From an uncultured SAR86 cluster bacterium (lineage in GTDB: Bacteria > Pseudomonadota > Gammaproteobacteria > Magnimaribacterales > Magnimaribacteraceae): DNA of 39,029 nt. Below are positions 7,132 through 36,431 of the stretch, one piece after another; the first letter of the stretch is position 1, and the number at the start of each line of letters is the position of its first letter. The notes beneath the pieces are model-generated. The model saw only the letters and a list, made by a program, of their open reading frames with translations. It was not told the origin of the DNA and did not search any database. The DNA lies in contig CACNCK010000014.1 of assembly GCA_902618945.1 (NCBI GenBank), positions 1 through 39,029 of the forward strand, read 5' to 3'. The position numbers were made by a program, and so were the translations under genes.

Positions 7132-8145
7132 TTACATTTTAACCTTTTGTAGCTCTTTAGAAAATAATAAATTGGATTTGCCGTCTTGCTCATGAATAAA
7201 TAAAGCCTTAATTTGATATTCATTGGCATAATCCATTGCAGCTTCTAATTCCATTACGTTTAGAGCAGTAGCTAGAGCATCAGCGATCATAGCATTATCG
7301 GAAACTACCGAAACAGATTTCCTGGACGAATTGTTTGGTGCACCTGCTACAGGATTTATTGTATGACTGTATTCTTCTTCATTAAAAATTCTTATATTTC
7401 TATAATCGCCTGAAGTAGCCATGGCAAAGGAGTCATAATCACTAGAAATAAACGAATAAACAATTTTGTCAGGCTTTGAAGGACTCACGACTCCTATTTT
7501 CCATGGTGTCTTATCAATTTTCTGCTTGGTAGTCCGAATTTCTCCTCCGAGTTCAATAAACAGATTATCAATTTCCAATTCACTAGAGAGAAATTTAAAA
7601 ACCTTATCAATCGCAAAACCTTTAGCTATAGATGAGAAGTCTAATGCAACATCTCTTTTTCTTTTGACAGCTGTTGCTTCTTCATTTATCTCTACGGAGT
7701 CACAACCAACTTGAGTTTTGAGATACTGAATATCTTTCGGAGATGGTTTTTGATTCTTTTCAAGAGGTCCAAAACCCCAAGAATCTACCAATTTACCTAT
7801 TGAAACATCATATAGACCATTGGATTTTATACATGTATCAACTGCATATCTTAGAACTTCTATAAAGTCTTGAGAAACTTCTACCCATTCATTTATTTCA
7901 GAATAATTTACTTTGTTTATAAGTGAATCATTTAGATAAGTTGACATTGATAAATTTACTGAATTAAAAGAATCATAGATTGATTGCTCTAAATTATCCT
8001 TTTCGGAAAATACAATTACATTATAGGTAGTCCCCATAATACTGCCCTCGATTCTTTGAGGTTCATCATCATCAAAAAGTAAACTTAATGCTATAACTGA
8101 TATTAAGATTATTAGAATCAGTATTGGAAAAGTTTTTTGGATCAA
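7132..8145 (-). CDS. apbE: FAD:protein FMN transferase ApbE
   Basis: Attaches FMN by a phosphoester bond to threonine residues, in the Nqr system of NqrB and NqrC. The 337-residue protein begins with a hydrophobic segment (residues 6-24) for export or anchoring. No lipobox cysteine is seen after it, unlike lipoprotein forms of ApbE. Family features are IEGSIMGTTYNV near 32, the GGE of FIELGGEIRT, FAMATSGDYRN, HTINPVAG, and the metal site ADALATALNVM near the C-terminus. It starts 3 bp from the end of nqrF and is followed by nqrM, which makes its partners clear. Confidence 0.95.
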   Translation of the reverse strand: MIQKTFPILILIILISVIALSLLFDDDEPQRIEGSIMGTTYNVIVFSEKDNLEQSIYDSFNSVNLSMSTYLNDSLINKVNYSEINEWVEVSQDFIEVLRYAVDTCIKSNGLYDVSIGKLVDSWGFGPLEKNQKPSPKDIQYLKTQVGCDSVEINEEATAVKRKRDVALDFSSIAKGFAIDKVFKFLSSELEIDNLFIELGGEIRTTKQKIDKTPWKIGVVSPSKPDKIVYSFISSDYDSFAMATSGDYRNIRIFNEEEYSHTINPVAGAPNNSSRKSVSVVSDNAMIADALATALNVMELEAAMDYANEYQIKALFIHEQDGKSNLLFSKELQKVKM

Positions 8146-8148
8146 ACT

Positions 8149-9381
8149 TTAACTGCCAAAATCATCAAATTTTATTGCTTCAGGCTCGACTCCAAGACTA
8201 TCTAGCATATCAAAACATGCTGACATCATTGGAGGTGGGCCACACATATAATATTCACAATCTTCTGGCGCGGGATGGTCTTTTAGATATTGGTCATGAA
8301 TGACTTGATGGATGAATCCTGTATGCCCTTCCCAATTATCTTCTGGCAAAGGATCTGATAAAGCTACATGCCATTCAAAATTATCATGTTCTTCTGCTAA
8401 TTTGTCATATTCATCTGTGTAGAACATTTCTGTTAAGCTTCTGGCTCCATAAAAGAAAGTGATTTTGCGTTTAGAGTTTAATCTCAGTAATTGATCAAAA
8501 ATATGAGATCTCATTGGCGCCATACCTGCACCGCCACCAATGAACACCATCTCTGCATCAGTCTCTTCTGCAAAAAATTCTCCAAAAGGTCCGAAAATAG
8601 TTAGAGTATCGCCTTCTTTTAAATTAAAAATATATGAACTCATTTCACCTGCAGGAAAATCTGTACCAGGAGGGGGTGAAGCAATTCTGATATTGAATTT
8701 CATTATTCCTTTTTCATTTGGATAATTGGCCATAGAGTAAGCTCTAATGACTGGTTCAAGTGTCTTTGAGGAGTTTTCCCAAACACCAAATCTATCCCAA
8801 TCTCCATGATATTCTTCTTCAATATCAAAAGATTTGTAATCTAATTCATATGGAGGTATTTCCATTTGAACATAACCGCCAGCTTTGAAAGCAACTTCTT
8901 CTCCTTCAGGTAATTTGAGAACAAGTTCTTTAATAAAGGTCGCAACATTTTTATTTGAAATAACTTCACATTCCCATTTCCTTGCACCAAAGACTTCGTC
9001 AGGTACTACTATTTCCATATCATCTTTCACAGGAACTTGGCAAGATAGTCTCCAACCTTCCTTTTTCTCTTTATTAGTGAAATGAGATTCTTCAGTTGGA
9101 AGAATAGATCCTCCACCACTTATAACCTTGCATTTACATTGAGCACAAGTTCCACCTCCACCACAGGCAGATGATAAGAATAAATTCTGAGCAGCTAAAG
9201 TTTGCAGCAATTTTCCTCCAGACTCTACCTCAATTGATTTCGCAGCATCGTTCATAGATATATTGATATTACCTGAAGAAACTAAAAGTTTCCTTGCACC
9301 AAGAATTACAAAAACCATCAAATTAACTGCAATTGTAAAAACAAGTACACCAAGCACGATTTCATTTTGAATAAAGTTCAT
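8149..9381 (-). CDS. nqrF: Na+-NADH:quinone reductase subunit F
   Basis: The electron-entry subunit: NADH reduces FAD, and electrons pass to a 2Fe-2S centre. The start is set at the ATG ending at 9381, just after the nqrE stop. The longer frame from 9417 would add 12 residues inside nqrE that do not fit the family. The resulting 410-residue protein has one N-terminal membrane helix (7-28). The ferredoxin cluster cysteines are C73, C79, C82 and C114. The flavin motif is RAYSMANYP, and the NADH-binding segments are [12 protein letters not shown] and MCGPPPMM. Fifth of six nqr subunits in position, sixth in name order. Confidence 0.97.
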
Positions 9382-9382
9382 T

Positions 9383-9982
9383 TTATAAAGATATTCCTCC
9401 GAATGATAAAAAACCAAAACACATTAGTCCTACTGTTATGAAAGTTATACCTAACCCTTGCAGACCCTCAGGTATATCGGCATATTTTAGCCTCTCTGTT
9501 ATTCCAGCTAAAGCAACAATAGCAAGGGCCCAACCAGTTCCTGCTCCCAGTCCATAAACTATGCTTTCAGTAAATTCTAGATTTCTTTCAATAGAAAAAA
9601 GTACTCCGCCTAGGATTGCACAGTTAACTGTAATTAAAGGTAAAAATACACCAAGTGCATTATAAAGAGCTGGTATATAACGATCTAAAAACATTTCTAG
9701 TATTTGTACTAAAGCCGCAATGATTCCTATATAACATATGAGTCCTACGAAATGTAAATCTGAACCAGGAAAGAGTGCATCTGCTTTTAAGAAATAATTG
9801 AAAATTAAGTTATTTATTGGCACTGCAAGCCCTAATACAACAATAACAGCAATCCCTAAACCAATCGCAGGTTGGATTCTTTTAGAAATGGCAAGAAAAG
9901 TACACATGCCAAGAAAAAAGTTGATTGCTATATTCTCAATGAAGACAGCTTTAACAAAAATACTAAGATAAGATTCTAGCAT
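9383..9982 (-). CDS. nqrE: Na+-NADH:quinone reductase subunit E
   Basis: An integral membrane subunit of 199 residues with about six predicted helices. With NqrD it forms a pseudo-symmetric pair that holds an iron centre in the membrane. The cysteine near the N-terminus ([14 protein letters not shown]) and the one in TVNCAILGG are at the positions expected for iron ligands. Its stop is 1 bp from the nqrF ATG, and its ATG overlaps the last base of the nqrD stop region, so translation of D, E and F is probably coupled. Confidence 0.97.
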
Positions 9983-10650
9983 TAAGCTGCTCCCTTCTCA
10001 CTTTCAAGACTATTTTTAGATATCTTAAATTCTGGCTCTTCTATTTGTTCTGTTTTCCATTGTCTGAGTGCCCATATAGTGAATCCTATGATGAAAAAAG
10101 AACTTGCTGGAGTTAAGAAAAAGTTATTTGCAAGATACCATCCACCATTAGTTGTCAGAGGCATTATTTCGATTCCATAAAATGTTCCAGCACCTACGAA
10201 TTCTCTTATGATGGCAATAACAATTAAGATGACGCTGTAACCAAGCCCATTACCAAAACCATCAATTGCGCTCATCAATGGCCCATTCTTCATAGCAAAG
10301 GCTTCTGCTCTACCCATAACTATACAATTAGTAACGATTAAACCGACAAATACTGACAATGTCTTACTACTCTCATAATCGAAAGCTTGAAGGACTTCAT
10401 CTACAAGCATCACGAGTGTGGCTATTATAGATATCTGTACAATGATTCTAATATTCGTTGGGATATGATTTCTTATAAGAGATACAGAAAGATTTGACAA
10501 GGTTACAACGGTAGTTAGAGCAACACACATTATTAATGTTATGTAGAGGTTGCCCGTAACAGCAAGAGCAGAACAAATGCCTAAGATTTGCAATGCAATA
10601 GGATTGTCATTGAAGATAGGATTGAGTAAAACTTCTTTCGCTTTAGACAT
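9982..10650 (-). CDS. nqrD: Na+-NADH:quinone reductase subunit D
   Basis: An integral membrane subunit of 222 residues with about six helices, partner of NqrE. The early [13 protein letters not shown] segment and the [14 protein letters not shown] segment both carry the conserved cysteines that face the iron. It overlaps nqrC by 8 bp at its start and nqrE by 1 bp at its end. Confidence 0.97.
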
Positions 10651-11425
10651 CTTTTACCTCACTTTGCTTAAGTCGATTTATTAGAGGCCCATAACCCATA
10701 TCTCCAAGCCAAAAAGAAAGTAAATTTGTAACTCCATTACTTGTAATGGTTGCACCAGATAAGCCATCTACTTGATATTTTGCAAGAGTACTGCTTTTAT
10801 CAACGGAGCCTTTAATAACAGAAATAAGGATATCTCCAGAATCAGAATATACCTCTTTTCCTTTCCATATAGATTTCCACTTAGGATTATCTATCTCACC
10901 ACCAAGACCAGGTGTTTCTTTATGATCAAAAAACTCTAATCCAATGATTGTTTTAAGATCTGGTTCAAGAGCCAGATAACCTTTCATAGTTCCCCATAGT
11001 CCATAACCTCTTACAGGCAAGATAACTGCATTTAAAGAATCGAAATCATAGTGAAGATAAACTGTTTGGAAGTTCTCACGTCTTTTTAGAAGAGCAATAT
11101 CATTTTCAGAGGTCAGTTCAATAGATGTAGCTGGATTTCTAGAATAGGCACTTTCTTCATAATCAGCTAAGCTAATTTCAGAATCAAACTCACCAGTTTC
11201 TAGATTAACTATTCGTGCTTCTATAGACTGGAAGAGCTCTGTTACGTCAGTATCTTCATCAAGCAAACCGGCAGCAGAAAGTATCTTACTTTGTTTGTCG
11301 AGTGTCTTGTTAGCTTCTTGAAGATCTCTAAGTTCAACGGCCGAAAAAGATATTAAAGCAGAGCAAACGAGGCATAGCGAGACAGCAACAATGAGAGTTT
11401 TTCTGATTGTATCGTTATTGTTCAT
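10643..11425 (-). CDS. nqrC: Na+-NADH:quinone reductase subunit C
   Basis: A 260-residue subunit with one N-terminal membrane helix (residues 9-29) and a periplasmic FMN domain. The covalent flavin is expected on T226, in [13 protein letters not shown], a textbook ApbE acceptor motif (SGAT). The PVRGYGLWG and ETPGLGGEI segments are characteristic. Its start overlaps the nqrB stop by 1 bp and its end overlaps nqrD by 8 bp. The intact SGAT here contrasts with the altered motif in NqrB. Confidence 0.97.
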
Positions 11426-12630
11426 TAGCTTGCCCTCCTCAATCTTTGTTTGATATTTCTCTCTTGAACAAAATGATCAATAAGTGGCGCAAATAAATTT
11501 GCAAATAAAATTGCCAGCATCATACCTTCCGGATAAGCCGGATTAACAACTCTTATCAATACCACCATTACTCCAATTAAAATTCCGTAATACCATCTAC
11601 CTAAATTTGTATGAGAACCAGAAACTGGCTCCACAGCCATAAATGTAAGACCGAAAGCGAAGCCTCCAATTACTAAGTGCCAGTGAAAAGGCAATGAGAA
11701 CATCGGATTGCTATCTGAACCTATTAAATTAAATAATTCTGATGTTAAGAATGTTCCTAGTAAGACTCCGGCAATAATCCGCCATGAAGCAATCCTTGTA
11801 TACAGGAGAACTATCAAACCTATAAGAATAAACAAAGTTGAAGTTTCACCTATTGAACCCGGAATTGAGCCAAAAAATGCGTCACTCCATGAATATTGAG
11901 CCTGTATTCCGTTAAGACCTTCTTGCGCCCCTATTCCTAATATTGTCGGTGAGCTATAACCGTCAACTGCAACCCAAACAGAATCACCAGACCAATCTAC
12001 TGGGTAGGCAAAATAAAGAAATGCTCGTCCAGCTAAAGCGGGATTTAGAAAGTTTTTTCCTGTGCCCCCGAATATCTCTTTGGCAACAACGATACCAAAA
12101 CTTATTCCAACTGCCACTTGCCATAATGGAGCATCAGGGGGACAACATAATGCAAATAAAACAGTTGTTACGAAAGCACCTTCATTGATTTCATGCCCTC
12201 TGAAAATGGCAAATACTACTTCCCAAGCTATTCCTACTATAAAGGTAACTAGGTATATGGGTATGAAATAGCACGCCCCAAACCAAATACAGTCCACTAT
12301 ACTTTTAGGATCATAGTTGCAAAATATGTCTATAAAAAAGAAGTGCCAATCATCTTTGTTTATAGTTCCCAGTTCTTCAAAAGCAGCGAGTGACTGATAT
12401 CCCAAGTTATACATACCATAAAACATGGCAGGAAACGTAGCCATCCAAACCACAACCATAACTTTTTGTAGGTCTACACTATCTCTTACATGAACAGAAC
12501 CAAAAGTTCTTTTGTCAGAAGAATAAAAAAGATTCTCAACAACATCATATATCGGAAAATATTTTTCTAAAGAACCCCCACTAGTGAACCTGGGTTTTAA
12601 ACCATCTAGAAATTTTCTTAATGGTTTCAT
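11425..12630 (-). CDS. nqrB: Na+-NADH:quinone reductase subunit B
   Basis: The core Na+-translocating, quinone-binding membrane subunit, 401 residues with about ten helices. The family is clear from [22 protein letters not shown], the [16 protein letters not shown] segment and [15 protein letters not shown]. The covalent FMN in relatives sits on a threonine in a D-x-x-S-G-A-T motif. Here the equivalent residues 223-229 read D-G-Y-S-S-P-T. The acceptor threonine (T229) is kept, but the Gly-Ala before it is Ser-Pro. I checked this against the bases near 11945-11970. It is not a frameshift. The gene begins directly after the nqrA stop. Confidence 0.97.
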
Positions 12631-13983
12631 CTATCCCTCAACCTCAATTTTAGTAAGTCCAGCTCTTAATAAAGAACCAAAATCATATTTTCCTGGGCAG
12701 ATATAGCTACATAAAGAAAGATCTTCTTCATCTAACTCTAGTCCCCCTAATGCTTGTAATTTTTCTGTGTCTAATAAAACAATGTTCCTGAGGAGCATTA
12801 TTGGCAACATGTTGAATGGTAAAACTTCTTCGTATGAGCCAATTGGCACTATTGGACGGTCCGAACCATTCATCAAAGCTTTAAATTTAAAAACTTTCTT
12901 GGGGAATAAGGAAGAGAGAAATACTGGCATCTTTGAAAATTTTCTTGGACCAGGAGTGAGCCAGTTCATAAACTCTCTATCTTTAGAATTGGGCTCAGCT
13001 ATTACTGAAATTTGATTATGATATCTCCCTAAATAAGCAAAGGAACCGATAGCTTCTCTTCCGGATATGATTGATCCTGAAATAATTCTATTTTCTCTCT
13101 GTGTCAATTCTCCTGCAGTTATTTCATCTGTAGAAGCCCCAAGTCTTGTTCTAATGTAGCTCGGACTGTTTACTTGAGGTCCAGCCAAAGAGACTATTCT
13201 ATTATTATCAATATGACCAGACTTAAATAACTTTCCTATCGCAATAATATCTTGATAACCAATAGACCAATTAACATTGGTTAAAGAAGCGGGAGAAATA
13301 AAGTGCATATGAGTTCCTACGAGCCCAGCAGGATGAGGACCAGAGAATATATGTTTTTTAAGTTGGTCATCTTCTTGTATTTCAAGTGAAGAATTATTAG
13401 AAACAGAGAGATGAATTGGACACTCAACTAATTGTTTTAGAACCAAAAGCCCAAAGTCAAAATCTTCTTTACTCAAGTTAATAATTGTTTCAGGATTAGG
13501 ACTTAAAGGTTGAGTATCAATAGCTGAAATAAATATGTTAGCAGGTAATGATTTTACAGTTGGGATCTTGCTGTAGGGTCTAGTTCTAAAGGATATCCAC
13601 ATTCCAGACTCTATAAGCTGGTCTCTGATAACATCTGAAGAACAGTTTGTTAAAGTATCGGCTGTAAAATTATCAAACTGAATAGAATCTTCTGCTTGAG
13701 AAATTTCTATGACAATTGACTGTAAGACCCTTCTGTCTCCACGGTTTATTGCTTCAACCCTACCACCTGCTGGCGATGTAACAATAACTCCTGGATTTTT
13801 CTTATCTTCAAAGAGAGGTTGCCCTATTTTTACAATATCCCCTTCTTCAACTAACATGGTGGGTTTCATGCCTATATAGTCGCTCCCCAAAATAGCAACA
13901 GATCTGCTTTTTTTGGAGTCAACTATATCTTCGGCAGGTGAGCCGTATATGGGTATATCTAAACCTTTTTTTATTCTAATCAT
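12631..13983 (-). CDS. nqrA: Na+-NADH:quinone reductase subunit A
   Basis: A soluble peripheral subunit of 450 residues, first gene of the six-subunit operon. The N-terminus MIRIKKGLDIPIYG followed by a lipoyl/biotinyl-like fold (VEEGDIVKIGQPLFEDKKNPG, TSPAGGRVEAINRG) is diagnostic, as is the C-terminal LEEDLSLCSYICPGKYDFG-like end. It is thought to contribute to quinone binding. Its stop abuts the nqrB ATG. A reverse-strand TATAAT lies about 45 bp upstream, in the 69-bp gap after gap. Confidence 0.97.
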   Translation of the reverse strand: MIRIKKGLDIPIYGSPAEDIVDSKKSRSVAILGSDYIGMKPTMLVEEGDIVKIGQPLFEDKKNPGVIVTSPAGGRVEAINRGDRRVLQSIVIEISQAEDSIQFDNFTADTLTNCSSDVIRDQLIESGMWISFRTRPYSKIPTVKSLPANIFISAIDTQPLSPNPETIINLSKEDFDFGLLVLKQLVECPIHLSVSNNSSLEIQEDDQLKKHIFSGPHPAGLVGTHMHFISPASLTNVNWSIGYQDIIAIGKLFKSGHIDNNRIVSLAGPQVNSPSYIRTRLGASTDEITAGELTQRENRIISGSIISGREAIGSFAYLGRYHNQISVIAEPNSKDREFMNWLTPGPRKFSKMPVFLSSLFPKKVFKFKALMNGSDRPIVPIGSYEEVLPFNMLPIMLLRNIVLLDTEKLQALGGLELDEEDLSLCSYICPGKYDFGSLLRAGLTKIEVEG

Positions 13984-14052: not shown

Positions 14053-15534
14053 CTAGGATGTTTCGCTAAAATTTGGATATCTTTGATAAGTTAATCCGAC
14101 CATCTCTTTTGCCAATCCCAAAAGTTGTGCGGTATATCCAAACTCATTGTCATACCAAACGTAAAGAACGCATTTGTCTCCATTTACGATTGTCGCAGCT
14201 GAATCAATTATGCCAGCATGCCTATCCCCTACAAAATCGGTAGAAACAACTTCTGGAGAATTTGTAAAACCTATCTGTTCTTTTAAATCTGAATGAAACG
14301 CCTGCTGTCTAAGGAAGTTATTGAGCTCTTCTAATGAAATTTCTTTACCTAGTTGAAGATTCATTATTGCGAGAGATACATTTGGAGTAGGAACTCTTAC
14401 AGCATTTGCTGTCAATTTGCCTATAAGCTCTGGGAGCACCTGACCTACTGCTTTTCCAGCTCCTGTTTCTGTTATGACCATGTTAAGTGCTGCACTTCTT
14501 CCTCTTCGAGCTTTTTTGTGGAAATTATCTATTAGATTCTGATCATTTGTGTAGGAATGTACACTCTCGATGTGACCTGAGATAATATTAAACTCATCAT
14601 TTAGAACCTTTAAAGTTGGAACTATAGCATTCGTTGTACATGAAGCAGCTCCTAAGATTTCATCATTCTCCATGATTCCATTGTTGATACCATGAACAAT
14701 ATTTTTTATGCCCTCTTTAGCTGGGGCAGTAAGAAGTACCTTAGAAATTCCATTGCAATTTAAATGAGTACTCAAGCCCTCTTTGGTTCTCCAGACTCCA
14801 GTATTGTCAATCAACAAAGCATTATTGATACCATAGTCAGTATAGTCAATCTCTGAAGGATCATTGGCATAAATTATTTTTACTTCATTACCATTTATGA
14901 TTAATTTATCCTCTTCCTCTATTACGCGTATTGTTCCTTTGAATGGACCATGAACGGAATCTGTTCTCATTAGATTCGCTCTTTTAATGATGTCATCATC
15001 GACAGCTTTTCTAACGACTATTGCTCGCAACCTTAGATTATCTCCTCCACCGGAATCTTGAATTAACATTCTCGTTAATAGTCTTCCAATTCTTCCAAAA
15101 CCATAAAGGACTACATCCTGTGCTTGCTCCAGTATTGACCCTTTAGTTCCAATCAAGTCATTTACCGATTCTTTTACAAAATCTTCGATAGAGAGATCCT
15201 TATCATCAAACAGGTAAGCTGCCGCTATGATTCCAATGTCAACTTCAGCCGGTCCTAATTCTAGATCACTAAGAGCTACAATGACTTGATAGGTTTCAAA
15301 TTCACTCATCTCATTGTTTTCGGTTTCTCTTACAAACCTATGGGCATTCATAATTTCTGAAACTGATAAGTTCACCAATGGCTTTCCATATAATAGAAGA
15401 TGAACATTGTCTCTATAAATTCTTCCAATCATAGGTAGCATCTCTTCTGCTAATGCTTGTCTATATTGAAAGTCGCCAAAAGGATCTTTTGGAAGCTCAG
15501 GACGAGTCCTTTGATCGGGCTGATTTTTTTTCAT
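14053..15534 (-). CDS. gap: Glyceraldehyde-3-phosphate dehydrogenase, long form
   Basis: A 493-residue protein in which a normal GAPDH of about 355 residues follows an N-terminal extension of about 130. The Rossmann motif is GFGRIG at 145-150, the catalytic cysteine is C299 in AASCTTNAIVP, and the catalytic histidine lies in VHSYTNDQN. Long forms are known in gammaproteobacteria: Pseudomonas aeruginosa carries one close to nqr and mfd, the same neighbourhood as here. After the second beta strand the sequence is AIVVRKA rather than one with the aspartate that selects NAD, which suggests use of NADP. That cofactor reading is inference. The ATG directly follows the TAG of the acyl-CoA dehydrogenase gene. 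Confidence 0.93.
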   Translation of the reverse strand: MKKNQPDQRTRPELPKDPFGDFQYRQALAEEMLPMIGRIYRDNVHLLLYGKPLVNLSVSEIMNAHRFVRETENNEMSEFETYQVIVALSDLELGPAEVDIGIIAAAYLFDDKDLSIEDFVKESVNDLIGTKGSILEQAQDVVLYGFGRIGRLLTRMLIQDSGGGDNLRLRAIVVRKAVDDDIIKRANLMRTDSVHGPFKGTIRVIEEEDKLIINGNEVKIIYANDPSEIDYTDYGINNALLIDNTGVWRTKEGLSTHLNCNGISKVLLTAPAKEGIKNIVHGINNGIMENDEILGAASCTTNAIVPTLKVLNDEFNIISGHIESVHSYTNDQNLIDNFHKKARRGRSAALNMVITETGAGKAVGQVLPELIGKLTANAVRVPTPNVSLAIMNLQLGKEISLEELNNFLRQQAFHSDLKEQIGFTNSPEVVSTDFVGDRHAGIIDSAATIVNGDKCVLYVWYDNEFGYTAQLLGLAKEMVGLTYQRYPNFSETS

Positions 15535-29851: not shown

Positions 29852-30846
29852 ATTAAGGTTGGTTCTATTTCTAATTTAATTCCAGTCATAGAAAAGATTT
29901 GATTAATAATTTTGTTAGCAAATTTAAGAATTTCATCTCCTGGAGTTTCTTCGTAAGTCACCAGAACAAGTGCATGCTGATCTGATATTCCTACATTTCC
30001 CTCTCTGTAACCTTTCCATCCAAACTTTTCAATCAAAAAAGCTGCAGATATTTTTATATCATCTCCTTCGAGATAAACTGGTATTTCTTCTGTTATATCT
30101 AATTTACTGAATTCTTCTTTAGTTAAGACTACGTTCTTAAAAAAACTTCCAACATTTGGGAATTCTTTATAATCAGGTAAGGCTTTTTTTCTAATTTTTG
30201 AGACCAAATCAAATATATCCCCATGAGTTAGATTGTCCTCATTAATGTTATTGTTATAAATTTCATCTTCAAGAGAGCCATAGGAATAATTGATTTTAGG
30301 ATCTGTTTTAAATTGAAATGTTACCGATAAAATTATGTAATCAGAACAATCTTTAAAAATACTGGTTCTATATCCAAATCCGCATTCGTTGGCATATAAA
30401 ACTTTGATTGAACCCGTCTTTAGATCAAAACAAGTTATCTTTTTTATAAAACTAGAAATCTCTGATCCGTAGGCCCCTATATTCTGTATAGGTCCTGCTC
30501 CAACTGTTCCTGGTATCAAAGCAAGATTTTCTAACCCAAACATTTTATGCCTTAAGGTCCACTCCACAAAATCATGCCAGTTCTCCCCAGAGGCAACTTC
30601 AATGGTCATTTTATCAATTTCTTTTATGCCTAATAGCTTGTTGAAAACTACCAATCCCTGAAATGTTTTAGTAGGAACTATATTCGTCCCCTCTCCTATA
30701 ATTAATATTGGTAAGTTCTTTTCGTTAGAAAATGAAATTATTTCATCTATTTGATTAATATCAGAAAGTTCGCAGAAAAATGATGCTGTTTCTGTGGTCC
30801 TTAATGAGGATAGTTCAGAAAATGGATAATCTTCTATGAAATTCAT
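29848..30846 (-). CDS. murB: UDP-N-acetylenolpyruvoylglucosamine reductase
   Basis: Reduces UDP-GlcNAc-enolpyruvate to UDP-MurNAc in peptidoglycan synthesis, using FAD and NADPH. At 332 residues it is the E. coli-type (type I) enzyme. Motifs: LIIGEGTNIV for FAD, ENLALIPGTVGAGPIQNIGAYG, YRTSIFKD, the catalytic serine in PNVGSFFKNVV, and the terminal glutamate in LEIEPTLI. It overlaps kdsB by 4 bp at its start. The kdsB-murB pairing puts lipopolysaccharide and cell wall precursor steps in one transcript. Confidence 0.96.
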   Translation of the reverse strand: MNFIEDYPFSELSSLRTTETASFFCELSDINQIDEIISFSNEKNLPILIIGEGTNIVPTKTFQGLVVFNKLLGIKEIDKMTIEVASGENWHDFVEWTLRHKMFGLENLALIPGTVGAGPIQNIGAYGSEISSFIKKITCFDLKTGSIKVLYANECGFGYRTSIFKDCSDYIILSVTFQFKTDPKINYSYGSLEDEIYNNNINEDNLTHGDIFDLVSKIRKKALPDYKEFPNVGSFFKNVVLTKEEFSKLDITEEIPVYLEGDDIKISAAFLIEKFGWKGYREGNVGISDQHALVLVTYEETPGDEILKFANKIINQIFSMTGIKLEIEPTLI

Positions 30847-31559
30847 TCTAAATCTAGAGCTATCTCTATTGCCTGCTTGAGATCACTTTCAGTATCGACA
30901 CCGATATGATATTTTCCCGATGATTCAATAGCATAAATCTTCTCTCCATTATCCATAACTCGCATTTGCTCAAGATTTCTTTTTATCTCATTTTTGCTTT
31001 GTTTCCATTTGATGAACTCCTGAAGGAAATTTACTTTATATCCGTAGACTCCTATATGTTTCTTGGCGTCTTTTCTTGGTAAATGATCAACATCCCTTGA
31101 GAAATCTTTTACTATATTTGAATCCAGCCAAAGTTTTACTACATCATTGTTTGCTAAGTCATTTGATACAAGGCTTGAATACAAAGTAACCATATTGGCA
31201 TTTTCTTTTTCAGCTAATTGCGCTAAGCTTTCAATATCCTTGGGTTCGATGAAAGGCTCGTCTCCCTGAATGTTTATTATTAGTTCTTCATCCGATAATT
31301 TTAGGATATCGCATGCTTCAAATAATCTATCAGATCCTGTTCTATGATTTGAACTAGTTAAAAGAGCCTCTACGTTAATTTCATTGCAATGATACATAAT
31401 TTCATCAGAATCAGTTGCCACATGTATAGATTTAGCAGTAGTTTTTCTTGCCTGATCAACTACTCTTTCAATTAAGGTTTTACCTGCAATATCCTTAAGG
31501 GGCTTATTGGATAGTCTAGTGGAGCCAATCCTGGCAGGAATGATTATTCTATAGCTCAT
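30843..31559 (-). CDS. kdsB: CMP-Kdo synthetase
   Basis: Activates Kdo as CMP-Kdo for transfer onto lipid A. The start is taken as the ATG ending at 31559 ([16 protein letters not shown]), giving 238 residues. The frame from 31580 would add seven residues lying inside ycaR and without family support. The nucleotide-binding [12 protein letters not shown] segment, INIQGDEPF and the [15 protein letters not shown] region are typical. It overlaps ycaR by 11 bp and murB by 4 bp. The order lpxK, ycaR, kdsB is the same as in E. coli. Confidence 0.96.
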
Positions 31560-31725
31560 CAGAGAGGTCTCTTGCCTCATCAGGTATCATAACGGGTATT
31601 CCATCTTTTATGGGATAAGCTAGCTTACTTTCATTACATATAAGCTCATCACCAATTTGTTCTAAAGAACCTTTTGAGACAGGACACACGAGTATATCTA
31701 AAAGCTTTTTATTGATCTTAGTCAT
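31549..31725 (-). CDS. ycaR: YcaR/Trm112-like small protein
   Basis: A 58-residue protein. The family pattern is a short zinc-ribbon-like fold: [17 protein letters not shown], then [25 protein letters not shown]. Only two cysteines (C14 and C30) remain. YcaR sits between lpxK and kdsB in E. coli too and has no firmly established role; related Trm112 proteins activate methyltransferases. The ATG overlaps the stop of the MsbA-LpxK gene by 1 bp (TAATG), and its TAG lies 11 bp into kdsB. Confidence 0.92.
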
Positions 31726-34529
31726 TAGTTTATTGTAAGTTTGTTCAAAATATTTTCGGCCAAATCGTCGTTTTCAAATTTAGCTTCTACAGATAAGTAC
31801 CAAAGATTATTGGAGTTCATTTCGAGGCATCTTACAGCATCTTTTTCCGTCATTATAATTGGTAATGTATCTCCGAAATCAAGATCCTCCTCTTTGAATT
31901 GATAATGATCAGGAAAACTATGTCTTATAGGATTTAAGCCTAAGCTAATTAATGTATTAAAAAACTTAGCTGGATTCCCTATTCCTGCTACTGCATGTAC
32001 ATTTTTGGACAATGGCCAGGAATTTGCACTGAACCTTTTATTGTCTTTAATTCTTGCCCATTCAATCGGCTGATAATTCATAAGGTAATTTTTATGTTTT
32101 GTCTTCAATCTGGTAAGTTTTGATGAACTAACTATAAAATCAGCCTCATCTGTTCTTTTTAACGGCTCTCGTAATGGACCGGCAGGCAAATAAAGTCCAT
32201 TTCCAATTCCCCTATTACCATCAAAAACTACAATTTCTATATCTCTATCCATCTTATAATGTTGTAAACCATCATCACTAATCACGATATCGGTATCTGT
32301 ATCTGAAAGTAATTTCTTTATTGCAGATATTCTGTTTGTCGATATACAAACTGGTCTTAGAGTGTTTCTATAAATTATCAATGGTTCATCTCCACTGACA
32401 CTTACAGAGGTTTCATCATCAATAAAAATAGGCTTAGTTGATGATCCCCCATAACCTCGGCTAACGATGCCGGGTTTATATCCGTTCTTTTCAAGTAATT
32501 TAGATAACCATATAACTAGAGGTGTTTTTCCGGTTCCACCAACAACAATATTACCAACCACTACAACCGGGACCTCAGGTTTCCAGGATAGTTTAGGTTG
32601 ATCTAAAAATTTATGCCTTCTCCTTTTAGAAACAAATTGCGTTAAGAGTGAAAGAGGCCAAAGAAGCCATAACCATAATTTCTTCTGATACCAGCTTTGC
32701 TCTATAAAACTAGCCGAGGATAGATCATCAATATTTTCTTCAAAGAAATTTATTTGAGGTTCACTTCTTAGACCAACTTCTTCATCATCTTTAAATTGAT
32801 TCCTGTGTAATTCAGCATAATGCCCATCTTGAGAAATTAAACTTTCATGCGAACCTATTTCAACAACATGACCGGATTCAAGTACCACAATTTTATCTGA
32901 ATTCTCGATAGTTGATAATCTGTGCGCAATTACCAATGTTGTTCTGTTTTTTGTCAATTCTACTAAGGCTTCCTGAATATAATTCTCTGATTCAGAATCC
33001 AGAGCAGAAGTAGCTTCATCAAGAATTAGAATAGGAGCATCTTTTAAAAGAGCTCTAGCTATAGCGATTCTCTGTCTCTGGCCACCTGATAGCAGAACAC
33101 CATCATCTCCGGCAATTGTTTCATAACCATCAGGTAGGGCTTCTATGAAATCATGAGCATTTGCCTTTTGTGCAGCTACTTGAATTTCTTCAAGTGATCT
33201 TTCTTCAGAACCATAATTAATATTATTAGCGATTGTGTCATTAAATAAAGTTATGTTTTGACTTACTAGGGCAATATGTGACCTTAGATTCTTTATTTCA
33301 AATTCACTTAACAATACTCCATCAATCTTTATTTCTCCCTCAAAATCATCATAAAATCTTGGAAGAAGACTCATTAGAGTTGTTTTGCCCGCACCTGACT
33401 TTCCAACAAAGGCAACAGACTCTCCTATACCTATTTCAAGATTAATATTATTGAGTATATTTTGAGAAGATTTAGCATAGGCGAAGGAAACATTACTAAA
33501 TTGAATTTCACCTTTTATTTCATCAGATTTGAATTGGCCATCATTTTTTTCGATCTCTTCATCTAATTGACTAAAAATATCTTCAGCTGCTGCTAATCCC
33601 TTCTGTATTTGGCTATTAATTTCGGATAATTGTCTAACTGGTTTGGCTAACATGCCTGCTGCGGTAAAAAAGGCTATAAAGGTTCCTGGTGTCATTACAG
33701 ATACTACCGAAGCATCAAGAGCTAACCAAGTAACAAGTGCTAACGCCGCAGAAACAAACATTTGAACTAAGGGTGAAGCAATTGAATTTGTTGCCTCTAG
33801 TTTTAAGTTTTGTTTTCTATTGTTATCACTCGCCTTATTAAATCTGTCTATTTCATAATCTTCGCCACCAAAAGATTTAACCTCTTCATATCCATTAATA
33901 GTTTCAGAGGCAACATGGGTTACATCTCCCATTGCCGTTTGAATTTTCCCACTTATTTTCCTTAACCTTTTTGCTGCAATACTAACTATAAGAGCAATGA
34001 AAGGTGCTGCAATAAATAGAAACAACGCTAGCTTCCAGTTTAAGTACATCAAATAAGTAATTAATCCAATTACTAGAAGACCTTCTCTAATTAGAATTTT
34101 TAAAGCATTAGTTGCTGCACCGGTCACTTGCATAACATTGAAGGTAATTCTAGAAATTAGATGACCAGAACTATGAACATCATAAAAAGAACTAGGGAGT
34201 ACAGTTAATTTTTCAAATAATTCAGTTCTTAAATTATGAACTAATCTATTAGAAATTGAGGACAATAAATAGTTTCCTACAAAGAAACCTATACCTCTTA
34301 CAAATGCGATAGCTATTAAAGCAAGCGGAAGTACTAACCTTAAATCGCCTTCAGGACTACTCACATAATCTATAACTCTTTTTAACCATTCTGTAGCAGC
34401 TACTTGAGAACCTGAATAAATTGCAAACCCCAAAATACTTACAATAAACAGAGGAAGATAAGGAAGAACATAGGTCAGCAACCTAGCATAAAGCTTTATG
34501 CTGGATAATTCTTGATTGCTTTTATCCAT
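31725..34529 (-). CDS. MsbA-LpxK fusion: lipid A flippase joined to tetraacyldisaccharide 4'-kinase
   Basis: One uninterrupted 934-codon frame encodes two proteins that are normally separate. Residues 1 to about 575 are MsbA: a six-helix ABC exporter domain, Walker [10 protein letters not shown] (379-384 core), LSGGQ (480-484), then [11 protein letters not shown]. MsbA flips lipid A-core across the inner membrane. From about 605 the sequence is LpxK, which phosphorylates the 4' position of the lipid A disaccharide: a membrane-anchoring segment ([14 protein letters not shown]), Walker A GGTGKTP near 665 and the catalytic DDGLQH with D752 and D753. The roughly 30-residue acidic linker has no methionine, so internal initiation of LpxK at ATG is unlikely. 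In E. coli these are adjacent genes, msbA then lpxK. It sits between lolD and ycaR. Confidence 0.93.
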
Positions 34530-34534
34530 CTGCT

Positions 34535-35194
34535 TTATTCTAAACTTAACAATCTATCCAGTCGACCAGAGACCTTTGTGTCATGAGTGGCTATTAATAA
34601 AGTTATGTTTCTTATGGAAACCATGTCCGTTAAAAGAGTCATAAAATTTTCAACATTCTTTGTATCTAAATTTCCGGTCGGTTCATCCATAATCAAGCAT
34701 GATGGGTTATTGGACATAGCTCTTGCTATGGCAACTCTCTGTCTTTCACCTCCCGATAGCTCATTTGGAGTATTGTTTTCTTTACCAAATAGATTCACTT
34801 GTTCCAAAAGTAGAGAAGAATTCTTCATAGCTTCGGTATGGTTAGTTCCTGCAAGTAATGCCGGTAATGCAATATTTTCCAATGCTGTCAAATCTGGCAA
34901 CAAATGATGGAATTGATAAACAAATCCTATTTCCGTATTTCTAAGTTGAGATCTTTCATCATAGTTTAGTTCTGTAATGTCTACGCCTTTTATCTTTACA
35001 GAACCTGAATCTGGTCTATCTAGTCCACAAATAATATGCAGAAGTGTTGACTTGCCTGATCCAGAAGCACCAACTAACCCAATAGTCTCGCCTTGATGAA
35101 GACTAAAAGAAAAATTTTTAAAAACCTGCAGAAGTTTATCACCTTCACCAAAGGATTTATCTATGTTCTCAATATTAATAATCTCTTCATTCAT
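34535..35194 (-). CDS. lolD: Lipoprotein-releasing system ATPase LolD
   Basis: The cytoplasmic ATPase that powers release of outer-membrane lipoproteins to LolA. It has 219 residues with Walker A GASGSGKST, the LolD-type FVYQFHHLLPDLTALENIALP segment, signature LSGGERQRVAIARA and Walker B LIMDEPTGNLD. It overlaps the LolC/E gene by 8 bp and precedes the fusion gene by 5 bp. Confidence 0.96.
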   Translation of the reverse strand: MNEEIINIENIDKSFGEGDKLLQVFKNFSFSLHQGETIGLVGASGSGKSTLLHIICGLDRPDSGSVKIKGVDITELNYDERSQLRNTEIGFVYQFHHLLPDLTALENIALPALLAGTNHTEAMKNSSLLLEQVNLFGKENNTPNELSGGERQRVAIARAMSNNPSCLIMDEPTGNLDTKNVENFMTLLTDMVSIRNITLLIATHDTKVSGRLDRLLSLE

Positions 35195-36431
35195 TATTTA
35201 ATATTTCTACTGGATCGACTTTTGAAGCCAATCTTGCGGGATATATGGTGAACAAAATGCAGGAAATAAGCGAGACAGCGCAGATTGCGGAAATCCATTC
35301 AAATCTAATATCTATTGGGAAATAATCAATAAAATATACTTCTAAAAATTGAGTGTTTAACAAGATTTCCAAAAAATTAATTATTGAACCGAAATTTATT
35401 GAAATAATTATTCCTGCAAAACAACCTAATAAAATTCCGAAAGAGCCAACTAGGCCTCCAAAGAGTAAAAAGACATTTCTAATAGTTTTAGAAGTAGCAC
35501 CCATAGTCATTAAAATAGCGATCTGAGATTTCTTTTGATTAACTGTCATAACCAGCATTGACATCAAATTGTAAGCAGATAGCAAAATAAGCATGAACAA
35601 CATTAAAGAAACTAAAAATCTCTCATTTTGTATAGCTTCAAATAAAGTTCCATAGTTTTGCTGCCAAGTACTAGTCATTATTTCTTTATTAGAAGTTTTT
35701 CTAATATTTGCTGCATCAAATCTTATTTGATTAGTCGAACTAAAAAGATCTTGATATTTTATCCTTATTCCGGTCATTGACTGGTTCATCCTCAATAACT
35801 TTGATGCATTAGCAATACTCATATACGCAAAACTTTGATCTAATTCTGGTGAACCAATACTAAAAATTGCACTAATTTTAAATTTCTTTGTGCGTGGAAA
35901 TATACCCGCTAATCCTAATCCAGTATCGGGAACGAGAACATTGACGTAATCTCCTACTTCAACATTTAGTTGGTAAGCTAAGATATCTCCAATGACCAGA
36001 TTATATTTATCTTCTTCAAGAGTCTGCAAAGAACCATTAACAATGTGGTCACCAATAGAGGATACTGTATTCTCATATTTAGGTATTACACCATAAATAT
36101 AGACACCTTTGAGAAAGGATCCAGAACTCAATAAACCTTGAGTTTCAATATAAGGGGCAACGCCAATAACCTGCGAATTCTCGTAAACTATTTTCTCTAT
36201 GGAATCATATTCCTTTAATTGGATATTTCCAATGATAGAGGCATGAGGGATAGTTTCTAAGATTCTTTCTTTAAGTTCTTTCTGGAAACCATTCATGACT
36301 GAGGTCACTAAAATAAGAACCAGTACACCAATAGTTATCCCAACGATAGCCATTCCAGAATGGAAAGAAACGAATCCATTTTTTCTGGACTTGAAATACT
36401 TTAATGCCAAATATAAAGATATATTTTTCAC
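35187..36431 (-). CDS. LolC/LolE family lipoprotein-releasing permease
   Basis: A membrane subunit of the lipoprotein release complex, 414 residues. The N-terminal LALKYFKSRKNGFVSFHSGMAIVGITIGV, a large periplasmic domain (about 50-260), and three C-terminal helices ending in YPARLASKVDPVEILN are typical. The start is GTG (36431-36429) with AGGA five bases before it. Only one such gene accompanies lolD here, whereas E. coli has lolC and lolE flanking lolD. A single LolC/E hybrid (LolF) working as a homodimer is known in other bacteria and is the simplest reading, but a second gene elsewhere cannot be excluded. Confidence 0.92.
   Translation of the reverse strand: MKNISLYLALKYFKSRKNGFVSFHSGMAIVGITIGVLVLILVTSVMNGFQKELKERILETIPHASIIGNIQLKEYDSIEKIVYENSQVIGVAPYIETQGLLSSGSFLKGVYIYGVIPKYENTVSSIGDHIVNGSLQTLEEDKYNLVIGDILAYQLNVEVGDYVNVLVPDTGLGLAGIFPRTKKFKISAIFSIGSPELDQSFAYMSIANASKLLRMNQSMTGIRIKYQDLFSSTNQIRFDAANIRKTSNKEIMTSTWQQNYGTLFEAIQNERFLVSLMLFMLILLSAYNLMSMLVMTVNQKKSQIAILMTMGATSKTIRNVFLLFGGLVGSFGILLGCFAGIIISINFGSIINFLEILLNTQFLEVYFIDYFPIDIRFEWISAICAVSLISCILFTIYPARLASKVDPVEILNNE

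Follow-up and report, generated by a model that had tools for sequence, protein, structure and literature searches.

Why would a bacterium make the lipid A flippase MsbA and the lipid A 4'-kinase LpxK as one protein, and what, if anything, would the cell gain by it? The question is raised by a locus in a stretch of 39,029 nucleotides from an uncultured SAR86 cluster bacterium (contig CACNCK010000014.1; this whole stretch is called the window below), in which a single open reading frame appears to join the two. In the surface ocean, SAR86 ranks with the most abundant groups of bacteria (PMC11582366). The initial annotation of the locus, made from the letters alone, had described the fusion and proposed two uses for it, namely passing substrate from the kinase to the flippase or fixing the ratio of the two enzymes. 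Here we set out what the locus encodes, how widely the fusion is kept, how often it arose and which of the proposed uses agrees with the rest of the lipid A pathway.

MsbA and LpxK in one reading frame

The fused gene is a single frame that runs without a stop from MsbA through an acidic linker into LpxK, as the initial annotation had read it, and both families were recovered above their cut-offs (Table 1). Pfam profiles placed ABC_membrane at residues 29-294, ABC_tran at residues 359-508 and LpxK (PF02606) at residues 620-931 of the protein, the last with 345.3 bits against a cut-off of 27. Among the NCBI equivalog models, TIGR02203 (MsbA_lipidA) scored 701.7 bits over residues 14-581 (cut-off 602) and TIGR00682 (lpxK) scored 250.9 bits over residues 626-928 (cut-off 91.95); a second MsbA model, PRK11176, gave 617.8 bits, below its cut-off of 867. 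The fusion had been described as starting from the nucleotide-binding domain of MsbA. That this domain is in frame with LpxK stands, but the protein contains the whole of MsbA, including the transmembrane domain, and not the nucleotide-binding domain alone. LpxK, for its part, is complete as had been stated, with GGTGKTP and DDGLQH both present in the window row of the alignment.

Table 1. Features of the fused gene and its neighbours; positions are those of the window.
Feature	Position	Strand	Basis
fused msbA-lpxK gene, 934 aa	31725..34529	-	single open frame, ATG start; kept across SAR86
MsbA part, residues 1-577: six-helix transmembrane region and nucleotide-binding domain	32799..34529	-	profiles, alignment, model
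acidic linker, residues 578-606, predicted disordered	32712..32798	-	model pLDDT
LpxK part, residues 607-934	31728..32711	-	Pfam and equivalog profiles, match to solved LpxK
LpxK N-terminal helix, residues 618-643, presumed membrane-association helix	32601..32678	-	model helix
LpxK Walker A GGTGKTP, residues 664-670	32520..32540	-	alignment
LpxK Walker B motif DDGLQH, residues 752-757	32259..32276	-	sequence, alignment
Trm112p-like (ycaR-like) small ORF	31549..31725	-	PF03966 55.1 bits, cut-off 22
kdsB	30843..31580	-	TIGR00466 184.5 bits, cut-off 155.2
lolD-like gene, directly upstream	34535..35194	-	TIGR02211 268.6 bits, below cut-off 307.75
lolC/E-like permease gene, upstream	35187..36431	-	TIGR02212 371.7 bits, cut-off 362.45

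In E. coli K-12 the gene order is msbA-lpxK-ycaQ-ycaR-kdsB, and the window has the same order without ycaQ in between; murB follows downstream of kdsB, and the ATG of the ycaR-like frame shares one base with the stop of the fused gene. Since the order of neighbours matches that of E. coli K-12, the fusion occupies the site where both genes belong. The difference lies in the product: in E. coli K-12 msbA and lpxK encode two proteins from genes that overlap by 4 bases, whereas SAR86 encodes one chain. The two E. coli genes are described as co-transcribed in passages of PMC4412817 and PMC10328246. Elsewhere in the window, a 493-residue glyceraldehyde-3-phosphate dehydrogenase (14053-15534) has recognised domains only from about residue 140, which leaves a long N-terminal extension, and genes matching subunits of the Nqr-type NADH:quinone reductase (7132-13983) adjoin a gene of the ApbE family.

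Compared with known MsbA (TIGR02203; PDB 9bd6, 3b5w), the window protein shares a full-length match above the cut-off and the ABC motifs, but differs in carrying LpxK as a second enzyme at the C-terminus. With LpxK (TIGR00682, PF02606; PDB 4ehw, 4ehx, 4itl, the last being the Aquifex aeolicus enzyme according to PMC6286764) it shares Walker A, DDGLQH and the N-terminal helix; unlike separate LpxK, it lacks a start codon of its own and is joined to MsbA at its N-terminus. The LpxK half matches solved LpxK with 87 bits, and among the best 60 of 299 rows of solved chains matching the fused protein, none covered the LpxK half.

Conservation across the SAR86 order

A search with the whole protein in 61 genomes gave a full-length match in 49 of them, at 45-100% identity and in all four families sampled. 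Of these matches 48 were free of stops, and the only stop, a TAG in one genome (G059, locus L167), does not separate MsbA from LpxK, because a 923-residue frame there contains both halves. Neither chance nor a missed stop at the junction, the latter raised by the initial annotation, explains the frame. The named records with close matches were MAGs and SAR86 isolates with AG- names, which we take to be single-cell genomes, and it is from these records that we take the order of the genomes to be SAR86.

When 151 genomes of the order were searched for LpxK, 122 gave a match. The 29 genomes that had none are mostly incomplete and include 5 of the 40 genomes that are at least 90% complete; the lack of a match probably reflects gaps in the assemblies. 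LpxK lay inside a frame of 913-966 residues in 116 of the 122, with MsbA directly observed in the same frame in 79 and the other 37 assigned by frame length alone. The exceptions are frames that start at a contig end (G102, G114 and G111), LpxK matches within 100 bases of a contig start (G055 and G132) and one genome, G103, in which both halves are split into many frames. No separate full-length lpxK was seen among the 151 genomes, and close relatives with two genes, which the initial annotation had named as evidence against a fusion, did not appear among the 122 LpxK-matching genomes of the order.

Motifs, selection and predicted structure

For comparison of the fused proteins, 128 fused loci were reduced to 84 proteins (71 from SAR86 and 13 others) by dropping 32 frames shorter than 850 residues, 10 exact duplicates and 2 proteins in which many residues were ambiguous; the 71 SAR86 proteins were made non-redundant by identity alone and do not count as independent. 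The catalytic MsbA residues K382, S482, E506 and H537 (E. coli numbering) are present in each of the 21 SAR86 rows of the set used for the tree below, and all 21 keep the Walker A lysine and both Walker B aspartates of LpxK. In the window, the alignment shows the Walker A, Q-loop, LSGGQ, Walker B and H-loop residues of MsbA, and arginine stands at each of the MsbA positions R78, R148 and K299, which we presume to be the basic residues that bind lipid A phosphates. Of 42 LpxK positions that are invariant in 33 separate rows, 36 are kept in the window, the misses being five gaps and one K-to-R exchange. Family f4 of SAR86 (loci L130, L169, L171, L173 and L179), whose genomes are among the smallest of the order, has LSGGE in the MsbA half and not the ABC signature LSGGQ, and its Walker B motif reads LIFDEAT in four rows.

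The ratio dN/dS was estimated for 11 pairs of our choosing, some of them saturated, and ranged over 0.021-0.054 for MsbA (9 measurable pairs), 0.042-0.159 for LpxK (8 pairs) and 0.064-0.553 for the linker (9 pairs). Mean identity over 2485 SAR86 pairs was 0.584 for MsbA, 0.491 for LpxK and 0.187 for the linker. Purifying selection acts on both halves. The linker measures 23-34 residues across the SAR86 proteins and is net negative in 64 of the 71.

An AlphaFold2 model of the monomer (32-row alignment; mean pLDDT 76.4) has folded MsbA and LpxK domains, a linker with pLDDT below 50 at residues 581-605, and a helix at residues 618-643, where LpxK has its membrane helix. We presume this to be the membrane-association helix of LpxK, the N-terminal amphipathic helix of the enzyme being required for its activity (PMC6286764). 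The model shows no defined interface between the halves, and with a pTM of 0.53 the placement of LpxK relative to MsbA is not predicted.

Distribution and number of origins

We then asked how the fusion is distributed outside SAR86, in surveys of the class and the phylum. In the class survey (369 genomes, 4 of them SAR86), a fused stop-free frame was present in at least 7 of the 365 non-SAR86 genomes, those among the matches listed being G235, G195, G508, G413, G328, G343 and, provisionally, G214, where ambiguous bases affect the linker as well as the Walker A of LpxK (locus L115). At least 32 of the 365 had both genes in one frame parted by stops, at least 28 of them by a single stop. In the phylum survey (398 genomes), G000 and G235 were the only full-length stop-free cases among the matches listed. 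The fusion thus occurs in other gammaproteobacterial lineages too, and the view that two genes are the usual state holds good, as the relatives outside SAR86 in the class survey mostly have separate genes.

Within some of these lineages the fusion was followed further. In genus g240 (family f157, to which G508 belongs), at least 25 of the 31 genomes had a full-length fused frame; of the other 6, 5 gave partial rows that run across the junction in a single frame, and G913 had no match among those listed. In the sister genera g175 and g485 none of 10 genomes was fused among the matches listed, G927 and G930 not being assessable. Family f166 has the fusion in all 6 of its genomes, and family f89 has it in 3 of 4, the fourth having separate genes; further fused lineages are family f63 and family f49, which consists of one genome. 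Outside SAR86, therefore, the fusion is near-universal among the sampled members of some clades. Long LpxK frames in G407, G357, G234, G233, G272, G285, G184 and G269 were rejected as candidates on one criterion, the absence of an SGGQ motif from them; among the loci concerned, L118, L119, L121 and L123 fell into the separate class, L117 was sorted as 'other', and for L120, L122 and L124 no MsbA-LpxK pair was listed.

A tree was built from 65 concatenated MsbA and LpxK rows, chosen by hand (21 of the 71 SAR86 proteins, 11 of the 13 other fused proteins and 33 of 34 separate pairs; L121 was removed by hand, and L066 holds part of MsbA only). All 21 SAR86 rows formed one clade, with an SH-aLRT support of 100. 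To account for the other fused rows five changes were needed, of which well-supported branches force at least three; the search was a quick one without bootstrap, and the positions of G195 and G343 are unsure because of their long branches. Constraining all fused rows to be monophyletic was rejected (p-AU 2.2e-6), which rules out one origin for all fusions, and so was placing SAR86 together with genus g240 alone (p-AU 1.8e-40). The fusion thus seems to have more than one origin among related bacteria.

One locus, L045 (JAQWPL010000008.1, 4935-7726), had been a candidate for a SAR86 member with two genes. It belongs to a gammaproteobacterial MAG, is about 50% identical to the window protein and carries msbA and lpxK as two genes that overlap in ATGA; the tree places it outside the SAR86 clade, and it may show the ancestral two-gene state. 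The best-scoring unfused pair among the matches listed in the class and phylum surveys is that of family f173 (L136 and L202, in G420 and G850), where MsbA and LpxK lie in the same frame with one stop (TGA or TAA) between them and are thus one substitution away from fusion.

Place in the pathway and proposed working

In E. coli, Kdo transfer and late acylation intervene between the steps of LpxK and MsbA (PMC8151780, PMC4412817). In 15 SAR86 genomes of our choosing, the KdtA family was present as a separate gene in 14, and so was the LpxL/LpxM family. The fused enzymes are therefore not on neighbouring steps, and the simple channelling of substrate from kinase to flippase that the initial annotation had offered as one possibility is unlikely; direct channelling through loss of the intermediate steps is not supported, on the same counts. 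G000 has matches to both families. G057, from SAR86 family f3 and 92% complete, has the fused gene and neither the Kdo-transferase nor the LpxL/LpxM family, absences that likely reflect one missing stretch of sequence, since the two genes lie near each other in relatives.

The second possibility, a 1:1 ratio that puts LpxK at the stoichiometry of the MsbA dimer, fared better, as one chain forces two LpxK per dimer unless it is cut. A model estimate for E. coli gives about 432 LpxK and 206 MsbA per cell (PMC4412817), whereas the SAR86 fusion would force 1:1.

We propose that the protein would work as follows. A complete MsbA half-transporter would dimerise to flip lipid A and would carry at its C-terminus a complete LpxK on a flexible acidic tether of about 25-30 residues, and each flippase would thereby hold two lipid A 4'-kinases at the cytoplasmic face of the membrane. 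The tether would let the N-terminal amphipathic helix of LpxK return to the membrane; by residue count, we estimate it to be long enough to span the distance between the membrane and the point where the nucleotide-binding domain ends. Two adjacent and tightly coupled genes would have been fused in a common ancestor of the SAR86 families sampled. The main effect would be fixed 1:1 production, together with the co-localisation of lipid IVA completion and export, both of which follow from the single-chain anatomy, while separate enzymes would perform Kdo transfer and late acylation in between.

A two-enzyme chain of this kind, with 1:1 output and co-localisation of lipid IVA completion and export and not a direct hand-over, is in our judgement the probable reading. 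We infer that the protein remains in one piece and forms dimers, that both enzymes are active and that co-localisation matters to the cell; a benefit from the fixed ratio or from co-localisation would be favoured by the recurrence and persistence of the fusion. A stronger claim, which we advance tentatively and would not expect to hold as readily, is that the coupling of LpxK to MsbA was itself selected, the fusion, which arose several times independently, exposing a general association of kinase and flippase that is otherwise held by the operon and by transient contact. Were this true, the completion, decoration and flipping of lipid IVA would share one site, and the kinase would produce as much as can be exported.

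Alternative explanations

The explanation that survives best against a beneficial fusion is a neutral one, in which drift or streamlining removed the stop between two neighbouring, co-translated genes and both halves work on without any benefit from being joined. A neutral fusion would likewise give 1:1 output and co-localisation, and neutral loss of a stop codon in a tight operon looks much the same at first as a selected fusion. The step is a small one: in relatives with separate genes, the first start-like codons of LpxK mostly lie within about 50 bases of the MsbA stop or in an ATGA overlap, and where a single stop parts genes in one frame, as in the 28 or more non-SAR86 genomes above, one mutation could fuse MsbA and LpxK. 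Small genomes (0.7-1.8 Mb in SAR86) and the low linker identity (0.187) fit such an origin, and since the linker is poorly conserved and no interface is modelled, nothing structural demands cooperation of the halves. The adjacent genes of relatives are moreover already translated close together, so that fusion may add little. However, the fusion recurs in lineages with larger genomes (4.1 Mb in G508, 2.3 Mb in G235), where most or all sampled genomes of the genus or family are fused, and no re-split copy was seen across four SAR86 families. We regard a neutral fusion as possible, though rather unlikely.

A polyprotein, in which the whole chain would be cut within the linker to release ordinary MsbA and LpxK, would agree with a linker that is disordered in the model and variable in both sequence and length. 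The same variability speaks against it, however, in that no conserved cleavage motif is evident at a linker identity of 0.187, and linker rows compared by eye share no motif ahead of the LpxK start. Such cutting seems to us distinctly improbable.

LpxK might also, or mainly, be made by internal initiation inside the fused gene. An ATG does occur in the linker of 14 of the 71 SAR86 proteins and of 8 of the 13 other fused proteins. The window, however, has no in-frame ATG, GTG or TTG at residues 578-652, which excludes separate LpxK from these codons there, and with the window and 27 others of the 71 SAR86 proteins having none between the end of MsbA and the LpxK core, internal initiation cannot be general; 45 of the 71 have none before the LpxK N-terminal helix. 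Start-like codons in the junction region of the 71 proteins numbered 89 against 164.5 expected at the gene-wide rate, a shortage that amino-acid composition could cause. A Shine-Dalgarno-like motif was found at none of the 89, which is a weak argument because just 6 of 22 gene starts in the window carry one. Taken together, we consider internal initiation very improbable.

A sequencing or assembly artefact, for which no support was found, G103 alone being frame-broken throughout as in noisy assemblies, is refuted by the recurrence of this frame across many independent SAR86 genomes, single-contig genomes included, at identities as low as 45%, and deserves practically no credence.

Relation to known systems and significance

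The initial annotation knew of no description of this fusion, and our search agrees: no account of an MsbA-LpxK fusion was found among the open-licence PMC papers listed, and one may exist elsewhere. The words msbA, lpxK, fusion and fused are absent from the main text of the SAR86 isolate paper PMC11582366, which names the cultured isolate HIMB1674, and LpxK, MsbA and lipid A go unmentioned in the main text of PMC4921024, a compilation of gene fusions. Automatic annotations may already bear both domain names. A related known case is a fusion of lpxC and fabZ in some Bacteroidetes, Chlorobi and Verrucomicrobia (PMC3087551), which likewise includes an enzyme of the lipid A pathway but joins other enzymes and no transporter; a waaA-lpxK cluster is mentioned in the same source. 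The fusion presented here is real, conserved and recurrent; it joins two known proteins and has apparently not been described before.

To conclude, wherever the gene was seen intact in the SAR86 order, a single protein appears to account for two steps of outer-membrane synthesis. According to a proposal given in PMC6286764, the pathway has a second point of control in LpxK, by way of its substrate and of LpxC turnover, and a fixed ratio of kinase to flippase thus has a bearing on the balance between lipid A synthesis and export. The finding is no new kind of system, and offers a clear and testable hint at how lipid A synthesis is organised. The repeated fusion of a pathway enzyme to the exporter of that pathway's end product makes a prediction of the Rosetta-Stone type, namely that LpxK and MsbA would associate in other Gram-negative bacteria as well.
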